From NCBI RefSeq assembly GCF_000512735.1, contig NZ_CP007028.1, positions 124,001 through 188,000 of the forward strand: DNA of 64,000 nt, given 5' to 3'. The position numbers were made by a program, and so were the translations under genes. Below the pieces are notes generated by a model. That model saw only the letters and a program-made list of their open reading frames with translations. It was not told the DNA's origin and searched no databases. Source of the stretch: Thermocrinis ruber (GTDB lineage Bacteria; Aquificota; Aquificia; Aquificales; Aquificaceae). Each line of letters starts with the position of its first letter. The first letter of the stretch is position 1. Below, in pieces: positions 26,579-44,732 of this stretch.

Positions 26579-26606
26579 TGTTAAATTTGTGTTAAATTGT
26601 GTTAAA
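26579..26606. repeat. Three TGTTAAA direct repeats upstream of cox operon
   Basis: TGTTAAA occurs at 26579, 26590 and 26600, that is 11 and 10 bp apart, one helical turn. On the cox strand they read TTTAACA. The array ends 42 bp upstream of the cox -35 box. Direct repeats at this pitch are typical of PhoB/OmpR-family response regulators, and TTAACA units 11 bp apart also precede phoU (43.4 kb). The 394-bp gap (26479-26872) holds nothing else except the cox promoter, a coding-like relic and the uppS -10 box. Confidence 0.5.
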
Positions 26607-38380: not shown

Positions 38381-39291
38381 GGGTTCTTATCACCGGTGGT
38401 GCGGGTTTTATTGGCTCCAACCTGGCAAAGGAACTGCAAAACACCTATCCCAAGGCAAAGATTTGGGTTTTGGACAATTTTTCCTCTGGGCACTTTAAAA
38501 ACCTGCTGGGCTTTAAAGGGGAGGTGATCACCGCAGACCTATCGGAGCCATCCCTCTGGGAGTGGCTAAAAAGAAACTTCCACTTTGATGTGGTTTTCCA
38601 TCAGGGTGCAATAACAGACACCACTGTAATGGACCAGTTTAAGATGCTAAGGGTTAATGCAGACAGCATGAGGTTTATACTGGATGCGGTCCTTGCATGG
38701 AATGCAAAGCTCATATATGCCTCCTCCGCCGGCGTCTATGGAAACAGCCCATCACCCATGAAAGAAGGAGAAGGAGAATTTCCAGAAAACCCTTACGGCT
38801 TTTCTAAGTTGATGATGGACCGAATAGCCCTGAACTTCATAGAGGAGAACCCACATATAAAAGTTGTGGGTCTGAGATACTTCAACGTGTATGGACCAGG
38901 GGAAAGCTATAAGGGAAAGACTGCCAGCATGGTCTATCAGCTATACAGACAGATGAAGGAAGGGAAAAGACCGAGGCTTTTCAAGTGGGGAGAGCAGAGG
39001 AGAGATTTTGTTTATGTAAAGGATGTGATAAGGGCAAACCTGCTGGCAATGGAGAGGGATGTTTCTGGTATTTTCAACATAGCTACTGGCGTTGCAAGAA
39101 GCTTTAATGAGATAGTTTCCATTCTAAACCAGCTTTTGGGCACCAACTTAGAACCCGATTACTTTGATTGCCCCTACGACTTTTATCAGAACTACACCCA
39201 GGCGGACATAACCAAGGCAAGGGAGCTTTTGGGCTACGAACCTCAATATAGCTTAGAAGAAGGCATAAAGGATTATCTTAAACATCTGTGA
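38377..39291 (+). CDS. hldD: ADP-L-glycero-D-manno-heptose 6-epimerase
   Basis: Short-chain dehydrogenase-type epimerase for LPS inner-core heptose. The 304 residues have GGAGFIGSNLAKEL (NAD binding), HQGAITDTTVMDQ, the catalytic Y140xxxK144 in NPYGFSKLMMD, RYFNVYGPGESYKGKTAS and QRRDFVYVKDVI. The TDTTVMD and GESYKG elements are specific for HldD over UDP-glucose epimerases. The pathway partners gmhA and rfaE2 are also in this window but not adjacent. It overlaps both neighbours by 4 bp. Confidence 0.88.
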   Translation: MRVLITGGAGFIGSNLAKELQNTYPKAKIWVLDNFSSGHFKNLLGFKGEVITADLSEPSLWEWLKRNFHFDVVFHQGAITDTTVMDQFKMLRVNADSMRFILDAVLAWNAKLIYASSAGVYGNSPSPMKEGEGEFPENPYGFSKLMMDRIALNFIEENPHIKVVGLRYFNVYGPGESYKGKTASMVYQLYRQMKEGKRPRLFKWGEQRRDFVYVKDVIRANLLAMERDVSGIFNIATGVARSFNEIVSILNQLLGTNLEPDYFDCPYDFYQNYTQADITKARELLGYEPQYSLEEGIKDYLKHL

Positions 39292-40268
39292 ACTGGGAAG
39301 AGGTCCTCAACGCCCTTGGAGAGGGGGTTTTGGTTTTAAAAGGTTCAGAGGTAACCTTTGTCAACCGTTTTTTGGTAGAAAACCAGCTTGTTAGAGAAGA
39401 CTGGAAAGGAAAACACTACTACGAGGCAATAAAAAGCCTACCCTTTATATCCATCGTAGGAAGAGCTCTTGGTAAAGACTCTCTTTCTGAGGAATTTCAA
39501 TATCTAGAAAGGTTCTACAGAGTAGTTTCAAAGAGGATAGGCGAGATGCTTGTCTGCGAGGTTTCCGATGTTAGCTCTGTGAGGAAATACGAGCAATCAA
39601 AGAGGGAGTTTGTGGATAACGCCTCCCACGAGCTGAAAACACCCATATCGGTTTTAAGGGGCATAGTGGAAACCCTTTTGGAGGAGGAAGAAGACCAAAG
39701 AAAAAGGCATTTTTTAGAGAAAGCTTTAAGAAGAGTAGAACAGATGCAAAACTTGGTGGAGGACCTGCTAACATTAACCAAGCTTGAATCGGGCAGGGAG
39801 AGGTTAAACCTTTCGGAGTTCAAGCTGAGAGAATTAGTGGAAGAGGTCTACGACAGCCTTGAGCAGGAGTTTGTAAAAAAGGAGGTTAGCTTTGAAAACT
39901 TGGTAAGTGAAGACTTTAAAATGTTTGCAGACAGGCAGAAGCTCTTTTTACTTTTGAGAAATCTTATGGACAACGCGGTAAAGTATAACAAAAGAGGAGG
40001 GAAAGTGTGGGTGCGGGCAAAAAAGGAGGGAAATAAACAGATCCTAGAGGTTGAAGACACGGGCATAGGCATTCCACCGGAGCATGTTCCCTTCATATTT
40101 GAGAGGTTTTACAGGGTAGATAAAGGAAGGTCTAGAGAAATGGGTGGCACAGGCTTGGGACTTTCCATAGTAAAGCACATTGTTTTTTTGCACGGAGGGG
40201 AGATAATGGTTCATTCTGAACCCGGAGAGGGAAGTAGGTTTTCTATCGTGATACCAATGTACAATTAA
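39288..40268 (+). CDS. PhoR-like sensor histidine kinase (no TM)
   Basis: A 326-residue kinase. Residues about 1-95 form a PAS-like sensor domain without any TM helix. The dimerisation domain has the phospho-acceptor H114 in FVDNASHELKTPI; the ATPase domain has LLRNLMDNAVKYN (N box), EDTGIGIPPEHVPFIFERFY (G1/F) and GGTGLGLSIV (G2). The order and SHELKTP...FIFERFYRVD pattern is that of PhoR. No response regulator is adjacent, but phoU with a Pho-box-like promoter lies 3 kb downstream. GTG start overlaps the hldD stop. Confidence 0.85.
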   Translation: MNWEEVLNALGEGVLVLKGSEVTFVNRFLVENQLVREDWKGKHYYEAIKSLPFISIVGRALGKDSLSEEFQYLERFYRVVSKRIGEMLVCEVSDVSSVRKYEQSKREFVDNASHELKTPISVLRGIVETLLEEEEDQRKRHFLEKALRRVEQMQNLVEDLLTLTKLESGRERLNLSEFKLRELVEEVYDSLEQEFVKKEVSFENLVSEDFKMFADRQKLFLLLRNLMDNAVKYNKRGGKVWVRAKKEGNKQILEVEDTGIGIPPEHVPFIFERFYRVDKGRSREMGGTGLGLSIVKHIVFLHGGEIMVHSEPGEGSRFSIVIPMYN

Positions 40269-40295: not shown

Positions 40296-40790
40296 TTGGA
40301 ATTAGACATAGTTCAGTATGATTTGGATGAGGCTACAAAAAATAGGCTTGAAAATGTCATTAAGAATTTTGTGTCTAAAAGCGGTTCTATGCTGGCAGTT
40401 CTCTGCGACGATGCAGGACGGGTACTATCCTACGATTCAAGGGTGCCTTTGGAAGAGTATAAATCGGAGTTCATTACCAGTATAGTCAGCGGTATATTTG
40501 GTGCTTCTTTGGAAATGTCCAAGCTGTTAGAACTGGAAGAACTGGACCTTATTCAGTTTGAAGGTAAGACCCTTAATGTGATCATAAAGCATATAAAACC
40601 AAGGTTCTTGCTTGGCGTTTTGGTTAAGAAAACAACCTCTATAGGAACTGTCCGTTTGTTTCTGAAGGAGGCGAGCGTTGAATTGGAAGAAATCCTAAAG
40701 GAAATGAAGAGTATACCCCAAAAGACAATAAAGATAGATGTAGAAACCTTGGAAGAGAAGTTGCGTGAGATAATAGGAGGCATTGAATGA
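40296..40790 (+). CDS. Roadblock/LC7 (MglB-like) domain protein
   Basis: A 164-residue protein; about 15-120 look like a Roadblock/LC7 domain (KSGSMLAVLCDDAGRVLSYD then strands and a long helix SIVSGIFGASLEMSKLL), the fold that in MglB acts as GTPase-activating partner of MglA. The C-terminal 40 residues are a helical extension. The start is TTG at 40296, chosen because AAGGAGG (40282-40288) sits seven bases upstream. A TAAAAT at 40272-40277 could give the operon its own promoter. The stop overlaps the GTPase start (ATGA). Confidence 0.7.
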   Translation: MELDIVQYDLDEATKNRLENVIKNFVSKSGSMLAVLCDDAGRVLSYDSRVPLEEYKSEFITSIVSGIFGASLEMSKLLELEELDLIQFEGKTLNVIIKHIKPRFLLGVLVKKTTSIGTVRLFLKEASVELEEILKEMKSIPQKTIKIDVETLEEKLREIIGGIE

Positions 40791-41356
40791 AGTTAAAAAT
40801 AGTTTATTTTGGGTCCAGTTTGGCTGGTAAAAGCACTAATATAAAACATCTTTATTCTATTTTGAAAGAAAAGAATATGGTAAAGGGTGACCTAATTACT
40901 GTGGAAACTGAAGAAAACAGGACACTTTTTGTAGAAATGTTCATAAGCAGTATAAACCTGTTTGGTATAGATCTTGAAATAAAGCTTTTAACCACACCAG
41001 GTCAATTTAGACTACATCCTTTAAGAAAAGCCATAATGAAGGGTGTAGATGGGTTGGTGTTCGTGGTAGATAGCAGTGCAGAAAGGGAGCGTATAAACTT
41101 CTTAGTTATGAGGGAAACAGCTGCAGTTTTGAAGGAGATGGGAGAGGACCTTTTAAATTTTCCTGTGGTTGTTCAGTATAACAAGAGGGACCTACCGGAC
41201 GCTATGGATATAGATACTATGGAGATGATGTATAATCCGTGGGGCACTGATTATGTTGAAGCAGTTGCCATAGAAGGAAAGGGAGTGCTGGAAACCTTTA
41301 TAAAAATTGTAAGAAACGTGCTTATAAGTAAAAATGCAAAGGATAGAGTTGTATAA
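40787..41356 (+). CDS. MglA-like small Ras-type GTPase
   Basis: A 189-residue GTPase. The P-loop is GSSLAGKST (9-17), switch II region LLTTPGQF (67-74) carries the PGQ of MglA/Arf-like proteins, and the base-specificity motif is YNKRDLP (132-135 NKRD). MglA family members act as polarity or motility switches together with Roadblock proteins. The preceding gene is such a protein, and the two are translationally coupled; the following gene starts 23 bp inside this one. Bases in this stretch are visibly A+T-rich. Confidence 0.85.
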   Translation: MKLKIVYFGSSLAGKSTNIKHLYSILKEKNMVKGDLITVETEENRTLFVEMFISSINLFGIDLEIKLLTTPGQFRLHPLRKAIMKGVDGLVFVVDSSAERERINFLVMRETAAVLKEMGEDLLNFPVVVQYNKRDLPDAMDIDTMEMMYNPWGTDYVEAVAIEGKGVLETFIKIVRNVLISKNAKDRVV

Positions 41357-42488
41357 AGATTTAAACTTAGAAAGCGTAAATTTGAAAGAAATATTCAGGG
41401 AAATTCAGGATAAATCGGAATCTGGTTATTTAAAGATAACATACTGGGATCAGGAGGATTATATATTCTACGCAGGCGGTAAGCCAATAGGCGGAGCTAC
41501 CTACGACAGACAGGGTAGGAAAATGACACTTGATTATCTGAATTATAGGATAAGAAACTATAACGGTACTCTTTCATTTTATAAACTTCCTACACTGGAA
41601 GTTCTTGTTTTTAAGTATAAAGAGTTAAAATTTCCAACACCTTACAATTTTGTTTCTTACGGTGACGAATTTTTGGCACCAGTAAAAACTACCATGGTAG
41701 ATCCAAACAGGGTTCTACAGCAGGTAAAGAGGTCCCATCTGAATGGTTATATTGTAATTGGCGACGATGAAAATTATAAGTGTATGCTATTCTTGCAAGG
41801 AGGAAACTCCATTGCCTTTTATAATGGTAAGCAGTTTATAAGGAAAGGCAATGTAAGATTTTCTGTAAAACGGGAGACAGATTATGTTGGTGTTTATTCT
41901 ACAGAACCTGAGTTCTCTTTGTTGCTTTCCTGTATGGACACCTTAAAACTTGATGAGGAGTATGATTTTAAAAGCAAGGAAGAGCTGGAAGCTATTGAAA
42001 AAAGTATAACTTCAAGAAAATCTACTTGTCTATTGGATGCCACTTTGAGCAACGGAGACAGGCTTTACCAGTTCTTTTACAGCGGAGCTTTCATTGTAAG
42101 AATACTTCACAGCAGGGAAGAACTGGCTTCAGCAAGCAGAATTGATATAAAACCTGGCACGGAAAATAGGCTCAAGGTTTTTTCTATAGATGTTCCCTTG
42201 GAGATTGGAAGTGTTAATGTTGAGTTTGTATATGAGGATGCAGATAGAAAGGTATATACTTCCTATGTACCAGAGGATAAGGTCACAAAGCTCAAGAAAT
42301 TTTTTATAGAGGAGATTGGTCCGATAGGTAGTTTCCTTTGGAACAGAATACTTAAAAGTAATGGTTTAGACGAAGCAAAGCTTAGCAAGGACGATTTTGA
42401 AAAGTTGGTAAATATACTCAGGGATGAAATACCTGATGAGAGGCATAGAGATAAATTCATTGAAAAAGTAAGGAGGTTAGAAACATGA
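41334..42488 (+). CDS. PATAN/DUF4388-like two-repeat protein, possible GTPase effector
   Basis: No firm family. The 384 residues contain two similar units: SGYLKITYWDQEDYIFYAGG near 31-50 and NGYIVIGDDENYKCMLFLQGG near 137-157, the pattern of DUF4388/PATAN domains seen in bacterial signalling proteins. A beta-rich middle follows. The C-terminal helical part (EEIGPIGSFLWNRIL...LSKDDFEKLVNIL) resembles the small helical domain that ends several PATAN proteins with GTPase partners. Overlaps of 23 bp (upstream) and 4 bp (downstream) tie it to the operon. Confidence 0.6.
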   Translation: MQRIELYKDLNLESVNLKEIFREIQDKSESGYLKITYWDQEDYIFYAGGKPIGGATYDRQGRKMTLDYLNYRIRNYNGTLSFYKLPTLEVLVFKYKELKFPTPYNFVSYGDEFLAPVKTTMVDPNRVLQQVKRSHLNGYIVIGDDENYKCMLFLQGGNSIAFYNGKQFIRKGNVRFSVKRETDYVGVYSTEPEFSLLLSCMDTLKLDEEYDFKSKEELEAIEKSITSRKSTCLLDATLSNGDRLYQFFYSGAFIVRILHSREELASASRIDIKPGTENRLKVFSIDVPLEIGSVNVEFVYEDADRKVYTSYVPEDKVTKLKKFFIEEIGPIGSFLWNRILKSNGLDEAKLSKDDFEKLVNILRDEIPDERHRDKFIEKVRRLET

Positions 42489-43387
42489 AGTTTATACCGC
42501 CAAAAAGTATAAGATGGAAGGTAGGTCTGCCAATGCTTTTTGTAGGCTTGGTATCTGGCTTGGGAGTTGGTTATTACACCTATAAACAGGAGGTGGATAA
42601 CGCCAAGCTCTTAGCCCAAGAGAAAATAAAGATAGCCTTGACTTTTTCAAAGGCCTCAAGGGCTTATGTAAGGGAAGTTCTAAGACCAAAAATAGACCAG
42701 CTTTTAGCTTCTGCCTCTGGATGTATAAAGGAGGACTTTATTTTAGAAGCTCAATCCTCCAGCTTTTTTACTGCATCCATATTCAGGGCGGTAAGTGAGG
42801 AATTGCCAGACTTTAAGCTAAGGCAGGTGGCGTTCAATCCAATAAACCCCAAAAACAACCCGGACGAAACCGAAGCCAAAATAATAGCCTTTTTAAGACA
42901 AAATTTAGCTAAGGAATACTCTGGTGTGATTGAGAAGGGAGGAGATAGATACTTTTTTTACGCTTCCGCAGTAGTGGTAGAGAGCGGATGTCTCAAATGC
43001 CACTATTCCATAGAAGCAATGCCAAAAGCTTTACAGGCTATTTACAAACCAACTCAAGATCCAAAGTGGGAGGTGGGAAAAGTGCAAGGTGCGGTGGTTG
43101 TTTCTATGCCCTTTGAGAAGGTTATTCTGAGAGCTCAGTTGGAAGGTTTAAAAAATGGACTTCTAGTGTTTGGAGTGTTCTTTGGTATAACCCTCTTGCT
43201 GTTGATAGTCCTTGATAGATTGGTGTTTAGACCTTTGGAACTTCTTGAAAGGAAGGCAGAGGAAATAGCTAAGGGTAATGTGGATGAACCAATTGAAATA
43301 AAAGGAGAAGACGAGATTGGCAGGCTGGCACAAGCCTTTGAAAGGATGCGTGTAAGCATAAAGAAGGTTATGGACCTGCTAAAGTAA
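42485..43387 (+). CDS. Membrane c-haem (DUF3365-like) sensor with HAMP, no output domain
   Basis: A 300-residue membrane protein. TM1 (about 13-31) and TM2 (about 224-245) flank a periplasmic domain with a single covalent-haem motif CLKCH (169-173), in the context of the DUF3365/Tll0287-like PAS domain (RQVAFNPINPKNNPDETEAK). A cytoplasmic HAMP helix pair (LERKAEEIAKGNVDEPIEIK, then DEIGRLAQAFERM) ends the protein at 300, with no kinase, cyclase or chemotaxis domain. It is the last gene of the Roadblock-GTPase-PATAN operon, overlapping by 4 bp. A redox, NO or CO sensor is plausible. Confidence 0.8.
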   Translation: MKFIPPKSIRWKVGLPMLFVGLVSGLGVGYYTYKQEVDNAKLLAQEKIKIALTFSKASRAYVREVLRPKIDQLLASASGCIKEDFILEAQSSSFFTASIFRAVSEELPDFKLRQVAFNPINPKNNPDETEAKIIAFLRQNLAKEYSGVIEKGGDRYFFYASAVVVESGCLKCHYSIEAMPKALQAIYKPTQDPKWEVGKVQGAVVVSMPFEKVILRAQLEGLKNGLLVFGVFFGITLLLLIVLDRLVFRPLELLERKAEEIAKGNVDEPIEIKGEDEIGRLAQAFERMRVSIKKVMDLLK

Positions 43388-43390
43388 TTT

Positions 43391-43424
43391 CTTAACAGAT
43401 TTTTAACAATGCTGACGTTATAAT
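43391..43424 (+). promoter_or_regulatory. Pho-box-like promoter of phoU
   Basis: Two TTAACA hexamers (43392-43397 and 43403-43408) repeat with an 11-bp period. A TATAAT box lies at 43419-43424, ten bases after the second repeat, and no -35 hexamer is present. This is the layout of PhoB/PhoP-activated promoters, in which the repeats replace the -35. GGAGGT (43432-43437) precedes the phoU ATG at 43444. Confidence 0.6.
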
Positions 43425-43443
43425 TCTACCTTGGAGGTTTGGC

Positions 43444-44127
43444 ATGAAGCTACATGCGGAGATAGAAGAGACAAAACAGCTCGTTCTAAAAATGGCAGAG
43501 CTTGTACGGACTGCGGTTGATAAGGCTATAGACTCTTTGAATAAGCAGGATGTCAACTTGGCGGAGGAGATCATAAAGGGGGATGATGCCATAGACCAGT
43601 TGGAAGTGGAGATAGAAAGGCGTTGTATAAGGATGATTGCCCTCTATCAGCCGGAGGCGGTGGACCTCAGGCTAATAATGGGTATGTACAAGGTGGTTTC
43701 CGATTTGGAAAGGATAGGGGATGAAGCGGAAAATATAGCACAAAGGTCAATTTTATTGGCGCAGGAGCCTCCACTGAAGCCTTACGTAAATCTAACCTTG
43801 ATGGCAAACACCGTGAAAACCATGATTGAGGATGCGGTAATTAGCTTTTTCCACAGGGATGTGGAGCTTGCAAAGAAGGTTATAGAAAGGGACGATATGG
43901 TGGATGAGCTATACCATCAGTTGGAAAGGGAGCTGATAACCTACGTCATGGAGGACCCAAGAAATATAAAAAGGGTTATAAGCCTTTCCTTTGTGGCAAG
44001 ACACTTTGAGAGAATGGCAGACCACGCAGAAAACATTGCAGAAATGGCCATTTATTGGTCTGAGGGAGAGCTAATAAAGCATCAGCATATAGTGGAGAGG
44101 AAGGCAAAAGAGGAAAAGGCTGAGTGA
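43444..44127 (+). CDS. phoU: Phosphate uptake regulator PhoU
   Basis: Cytosolic negative regulator of the Pho response and phosphate transport, 227 residues. The two three-helix repeats are clear: about 1-110 with RCIRMIALYQPEAVDLRLIM and ELERIGDEAENIA-type sequence (DLERIGDEAENIAQRS), and about 115-220 with SLSFVARHFERMADHAENIAE, both metal-binding E/D-rich motifs. No pst transporter genes follow, unusual for phoU. GTGA overlap with tmk. Confidence 0.93.
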   Translation: MKLHAEIEETKQLVLKMAELVRTAVDKAIDSLNKQDVNLAEEIIKGDDAIDQLEVEIERRCIRMIALYQPEAVDLRLIMGMYKVVSDLERIGDEAENIAQRSILLAQEPPLKPYVNLTLMANTVKTMIEDAVISFFHRDVELAKKVIERDDMVDELYHQLERELITYVMEDPRNIKRVISLSFVARHFERMADHAENIAEMAIYWSEGELIKHQHIVERKAKEEKAE

Positions 44128-44732
44128 AAGGCTTTCTTATAAGCTTTGAGGGAATAGACGGTTCTGGCAAAAGCACGCAAGCCCGTAAGCTGTATGAGTT
44201 TTTAAAGGAAGAAGGCTACGAGGTCTCCCTCTATAGAGACCCAGGTTCTACTCCCCTGGCAGAACAGATAAGGGAGCTGATAATAAACTACGCTATGGAC
44301 CCAATCACAGAGCTTTTGCTCTTTGAGAGTGCAAGGTCTAGCTTAGTGTGGGAGAAAATATTCCCAGACCTGACCAGTGGAAAGATTGTAATAGTAGATC
44401 GGTTTATAGACTCTACGACCGCTTACCAGGGCTACGGAAGGGAGATAAACTTAGGAACTGTTAGCATTTTAAATCACATAGCCACAAGGGGAAGAAAACC
44501 AGACCTTACCTTTATACTTAACCTACCCTTGGAGTTGGCCCTGCATAGGTTGAAAGAACAAAAGACCAAGTTTGAAGAGCCGAACTACCTAAAGAGGGTC
44601 AGGGACGGATACCTTCAGATTTTCTATTCTGAAAAGGAGAGGGACATAAGGTTGATAGATGCCAGCAGGTCAGAGGAGGAGGTTTTTGAGGAAATAAAAA
44701 CCATAACCTTGGGAAAGCTTAAGGTATTGTAA
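44124..44732 (+). CDS. tmk: Thymidylate kinase
   Basis: Phosphorylates dTMP to dTDP. The 202 residues include FEGIDGSGKSTQARKLYEFL (P-loop), YRDPGSTPLAEQIREL (the DPG-containing DRX-like region), IVDRFIDSTTAYQGYGR and the LID-like HRLKEQKTKFEE. GTG start at 44124 overlaps the phoU stop. Confidence 0.94.
   Translation: MKGFLISFEGIDGSGKSTQARKLYEFLKEEGYEVSLYRDPGSTPLAEQIRELIINYAMDPITELLLFESARSSLVWEKIFPDLTSGKIVIVDRFIDSTTAYQGYGREINLGTVSILNHIATRGRKPDLTFILNLPLELALHRLKEQKTKFEEPNYLKRVRDGYLQIFYSEKERDIRLIDASRSEEEVFEEIKTITLGKLKVL

Follow-up and report, generated by a model that had tools for sequence, protein, structure and literature searches.

A predicted Pho box in place of the -35 element of phoU and a putative phosphate regulon in Thermocrinis ruber

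Introduction

Bacterial phosphate regulons are recognized by the operators of their response regulators. The PhoP box of Bacillus subtilis has a TTAACA-like half-site repeated at the same spacing as the sequence described below, and the PHO box of Escherichia coli stands where a -35 element would otherwise be, its targets including pst, phosphatase and phoU genes. In the part of the source available, the E. coli box bound by PhoB is described as two 11-nt direct repeats that are occupied head to tail (PMC4415409). A 2026 survey of 926 genomes lists, in the part of it available, Aquificales among the taxa having genomes with neither an identified PhoP nor an identified PhoR; by its own account the selection favoured genes in clusters with phoU or pst and may have missed divergent unlinked homologues (PMC13170248). 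In the titles and abstract beginnings of the open-licence literature, no paper on a Pho box in Aquificales, Aquifex, Hydrogenobacter or Thermocrinis was among the matches listed, and for TTAACA together with PhoP the titles and abstract beginnings likewise gave none on a Bacillus Pho box.

The phoU promoter

The window, a stretch of 64,000 nucleotides of Thermocrinis ruber DNA (C1:124001-188000), lies within a single contig of 1,521,037 bp. Upstream of its phoU gene, at 43392-43408 on the forward strand, is TTAACAGATTTTTAACA, in which two TTAACA half-sites separated by GATTT form direct repeats with an 11-bp period. Ten bases separate the end of this operator (43408) from a -10 element, TATAAT at 43419-43424 (+), with the start codon of phoU at 43444. 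The operator occupies the -35 place, and the best -35 candidate for this TATAAT, at spacings of 14-19, agrees with TTGACA at 2/6 positions. A consensus scan of 43200-43600 found no sigma-70 promoter, and no terminator was found in a scan of the same interval ahead of phoU. An earlier note made from the letters of this DNA had described just this arrangement, paired repeats of 11-bp period ten bases before TATAAT with no -35, and had likened it to the geometry of PhoB/PhoP-activated promoters; the sequence and the -35 scan confirm the description, and the likeness is supported by the repeat period and by the operator standing in the -35 place. On sequence grounds the repeat is, with high confidence, a predicted Pho box: it would serve a PhoB-type response regulator as operator and replace the -35 of the phoU promoter.

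The gene itself (43444-44127, +) scores 221.8 bits on TIGR02135 against a cut-off of 130.25, and has two PhoU domains (PF01895); no other PhoU gene was found in this genome. Its closest named counterparts are in four Thermocrinis MAGs at 96-98% identity, in a search from which records of its own genome may be excluded. The next gene (44124-44732, +), which we take by eye to be thymidylate kinase, overlaps the phoU stop by 4 bases and is probably co-transcribed with phoU. On the other side, a gene for a Tll0287-like/HAMP protein (42485-43387, +) has its stop 4 bases ahead of the operator. It is the last of a set filling 40296-43387, between phoU and the kinase gene considered below, that comprises a Roadblock protein, an MglA-like GTPase, a 384-aa unknown and the Tll0287/HAMP protein. 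By coordinates, the corresponding gap in three relatives (G001, G002 and G004) is too small for these genes. A similar pair by eye, of GTPase and large protein, precedes an MtrA-like regulator (L037:3571-5561).

The box across the genome

Expected numbers of N5 pairs were derived from the density of TTAACA, 25 in the window on both strands. By chance 0.005 exact TTAACA-N5-TTAACA would be expected per window and 0.12 per 1.52 Mb; the numbers observed are 2 and 7. Allowing up to one mismatch there are 23 boxes in the genome versus 1 for a reversed-pattern control. Over all spacings between N0 and N30 there are 19 exact TTAACA pairs, seven of them N5, and one N16 pair spans three half-sites in 11-bp steps, so that the 11-bp period is the preferred spacing among exact pairs in this genome. 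Some near-exact sites are inside genes, and some exact boxes have no recognized gene behind them.

The seven exact boxes are at phoU, at pstSCAB, at phoX, at an operon for a TonB receptor and phoD, at dnaA, at ctaE and in the interval between phoX and a DUF2334 operon. That at C1:578949 precedes a small ORF and then pstSCAB, which is not adjacent to phoU. At phoX, whose product matches PF05787 (E 1e-154), four half-sites follow one another in 11-bp steps, the third being TTAACC. Another heads the operon TonB receptor/exbB/exbD/tonB/phoD, phoD being identified by PF09423 (E 2e-76). The same box is, then, at pstSCAB, phoX and the phoD operon of the genome that has it at phoU. The earlier note had proposed a search for the repeats before pst or phosphatase genes, and these three loci are what such a search yields. 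Its remark that phoU has no pst genes beside it is borne out, pstSCAB being elsewhere in the genome. Its suggestion that phosphate control may run through the phoU promoter alone is contradicted, because pst, phoX and phoD carry boxes of their own.

When the box was combined with a -10 in the form box + N9 + TANNNT, up to two mismatches gave 16 places in the genome versus 2 in the control. Perfect matches are in two places only, ahead of pst and of the phoD operon, and with one mismatch the combination occurs at the DUF2334 operon, phoX, an operon for small proteins and a P-type ATPase, a 69-aa ORF and C1:1246055. The phoU promoter is two mismatches from this form because its -10 sits one base further on.

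An exact box lies between the end of phoX and the DUF2334 operon, and alongside it a one-mismatch box faces that operon. Downstream of the one-mismatch box are genes for a DUF2334 protein, a PHP-glycosyltransferase and a glycosyltransferase (L030:2295-6299, -), and the operon could serve to remodel lipids or surface sugars when phosphate is limiting. In several genera and two genomes of family f3, the operon that encodes a P-type ATPase together with a 121-aa protein and small proteins (L032:2881-5855, and L110, L111, L199, L163, L181 and L182) carries a box that is exact or differs at one position; this operon is possibly an unrecognized member of the Pho regulon. The 69-aa ORF (L035:5514-5723, -) has a Pho box plus a -10. 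No Pfam family matches its protein, and a search of 37 genomes matched the ORF in 5. Across seven loci, its box is present, with the -10, in G000, G004, G012, G023 and G035 and absent in G048 and G050; G000 and G012, the latter of a different genus, have nearly the same box, near flank and gene.

Conservation in relatives

Of 61 genomes, 59 gave a match to phoU. The survey of its box took loci from 50 of the 59, nine genomes being left out, and 48 loci were readable after two (L042 and L061) were dropped because their upstream DNA was too short. With a best score of at least 10/12 counted as retention, 18 of the 48, the present locus included, keep the box: all six loci of genus g1, three of three in g7, four of four in g10, four of four in g11 and the single locus of g2. 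Two of the 18 are weak, G027 (10/12, p ~0.04) and G007 (10/12, p ~0.07). The other 30 score 9 or less (15 from the f1 genera g3, g4, g5, g6 and g9, five from f2 and ten from f3). Conservation at the same gene is therefore found within a clade and not across the order, with g2 a weak case. Absence of the repeats from close relatives, which the earlier note would have held against its proposal, did not occur within the genus, where 6/6 readable loci carry the box. By eye, the sequence 5′ of the box differs between the genera that keep it, and an AT-rich -10-like hexamer, unscored, follows the box in most of their loci.

Over all 61 genomes there are 119 exact boxes versus 15 control hits, divided between families as 85 versus 6 in f1, 13 versus 5 in f2 and 21 versus 4 in f3, the excess in f2 being small. 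A subset of the 119 places, 83 distinct boxes including seven from the present genome, was classified after identical sequences from different genomes had been merged, close relatives among them not being independent. Directly ahead of classical phosphate genes are 29 of the 83: pstS 13 (one of them, L122, by eye), phoU 8, phoX 4, phoD 1, the receptor gene of a phoD operon 2 and phoB 1. The remaining 54 are elsewhere, five at dnaA and 49 at other genes or at none recognized.

The candidate kinase and regulator

The earlier note had pointed to a PhoR-like kinase gene 3 kb upstream of phoU, and that identification is supported. The gene (39288-40268, +) encodes a histidine kinase with HisKA and HATPase domains (PF00512/PF02518) whose two best NCBIfam models are PnpS (294.8 bits) and phoR_proteo (TIGR02966, 267.1 bits). 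Both scores are below the equivalog cut-offs, 400 and 334.2 respectively, and the protein is therefore termed PhoR-like. In relatives it is linked to phoU or phoB. The best kinase match adjoins phoU, within 60 bases, in all nine f3 genomes compared, the copy in G051 being interrupted by stop codons. In G002, G004 and G001 it is upstream of phoU at about 40, 70 and 390 bases, respectively. Judged by these models and neighbourhoods, the kinase is likely to be PhoR.

Three genes in the genome encode an OmpR-type effector domain. PhoB is the best NCBIfam model for one of them only, an orphan at C1:1424956-1425621 (-), the best models of the others being MtrA and RppA. Since its 214.1 bits on TIGR02154 fall short of the PhoB equivalog cut-off of 296.2, the orphan is named PhoB-like. 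Among solved structures it is closest to mycobacterial PhoP and RegX3, and its effector domain aligns with that of E. coli PhoB and also matches CpxR and PmrA. The DRT-DVH of the E. coli PhoB recognition helix is kept and the positions that follow differ, differences that would suit another half-site.

We infer the following sequence of events. Low phosphate would activate the PhoR-like kinase, which would phosphorylate the orphan PhoB-like regulator; two molecules of the latter would bind the two 11-bp repeats head to tail and so hold or recruit sigma-70 polymerase at TATAAT. Transcription of phoU would then rise together with that of pstSCAB, phoX and phoD, carriers of the same box, and PhoU may in turn feed back on PstSCAB and PhoR.

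Alternative explanations

That the phoU repeats represent a common feature of promoters, or a chance repeat in AT-rich DNA, might be argued from the window, where sites with up to two mismatches show no excess (9 found versus 9.5 expected from shuffles), and from the 30 of 48 phoU loci with no such box. Against this are the excess of exact matches across the genome, the fixed spacing of the half-sites and the conservation of the box while its flanks change. The phoU repeat is not a chance occurrence, and this first explanation is improbable in the extreme. A more substantial alternative, though still one that we consider rather unlikely, is that phoU is mainly read through from the yidC-phoR-Tll0287 run and that the box only modulates its expression. 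Read-through is possible because the genes ahead of phoU are tightly packed on the same strand, with 56 bases from stop to start and no terminator found; however, the box persists in relatives where the upstream sequence differs.

The regulon could also be real and its regulator other than the PhoB-like protein, the box being bound by the MtrA-like protein at C1:1009541 or by the third OmpR-type regulator, C1:1101993. OmpR-family regulators often bind tandem repeats, C1:1101993 and its kinase are encoded on the phoD strand, some 3 kb downstream of that gene, and the PhoB model gives the MtrA-like protein 205 bits and C1:1424956 214. Nevertheless, PhoB is the best model for C1:1424956 alone. 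In G009, G011 and G018 the best match to this regulator neighbours the best PhoR match, and in G011 an exact box is directly ahead of it, so that either of the other regulators is quite improbable as the one that binds. The preferred reading remains that of a Pho box at phoU which the orphan PhoB-like regulator would bind.

Boxes at dnaA and ctaE

The box at dnaA (genome C1:9-25; L038:9-25), TTAACAATTTCTTAACA, is a perfect Pho-type 17-mer with its 11-mer in tandem, and ends 20 bases before the start of the dnaA ORF. Six genomes of the genus (G000, G001, G002, G004, G005 and G006) have the identical 17-mer, one of them with a DnaA that is only 77% identical; the seventh, G003, lacks it, as do 13 loci from other genera. 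A -10 at +9 is lacking, so that the effect of PhoB on dnaA may be repression or tuning instead. That the Thermocrinis phosphate regulon reaches dnaA in this way, which would couple chromosome replication to phosphate supply, is a speculative extension that we regard as doubtful.

The second exact box of the window (26579-26595, -) is 100 bp before ctaE and is probably not a functional Pho box, as it has no -10 at +9 and is poorly kept in relatives. Only two of 16 ctaE-like loci score above 9/12, this one and, in G004, a paralogue (11/12); in G002 and G003 the orthologous loci score 8. By eye, a promoter of the form TTGACA-17-TATATC lies between the box and ctaE and recurs in G002 and G003.

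Comparison with known systems

From the perspective of known phosphate switches, the resemblance to E. coli extends to an operator that takes the -35 position and to pst, phosphatase and phoU genes as its targets. The half-site is different, TTAACA here and a CTGTCAT core there, and in contrast to E. coli phoU is separate from pst and the phosphatases are PhoX and PhoD. Half-site and spacing are instead like those of the Bacillus subtilis PhoP box, though here they are in an Aquificales genome and PhoB is the NCBIfam model that the candidate regulator fits best. Among solved structures the closest to the PhoU protein is that of Aquifex aeolicus (1T72, E 6e-103), an entry on the protein alone; the phoU box is missing from several Aquificaceae genera, which are designated here by number.

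The two direct repeats of 11-bp period are again as in the E. coli PHO box, as described in the available part of PMC4415409. This type of switch is well known, and it is met here in an order for which the survey, in the part of it available, identified neither PhoP nor PhoR in some genomes (PMC13170248). The boxes, together with a phoU-linked kinase and an orphan PhoB-like regulator, would fill the Aquificales gap as it appears in that part of the survey. They offer a testable regulon in a thermophile and, where the survey's selection leaned on clustering with phoU or pst, a way to find unlinked regulators by tracing the operator rather than the gene neighbourhood.
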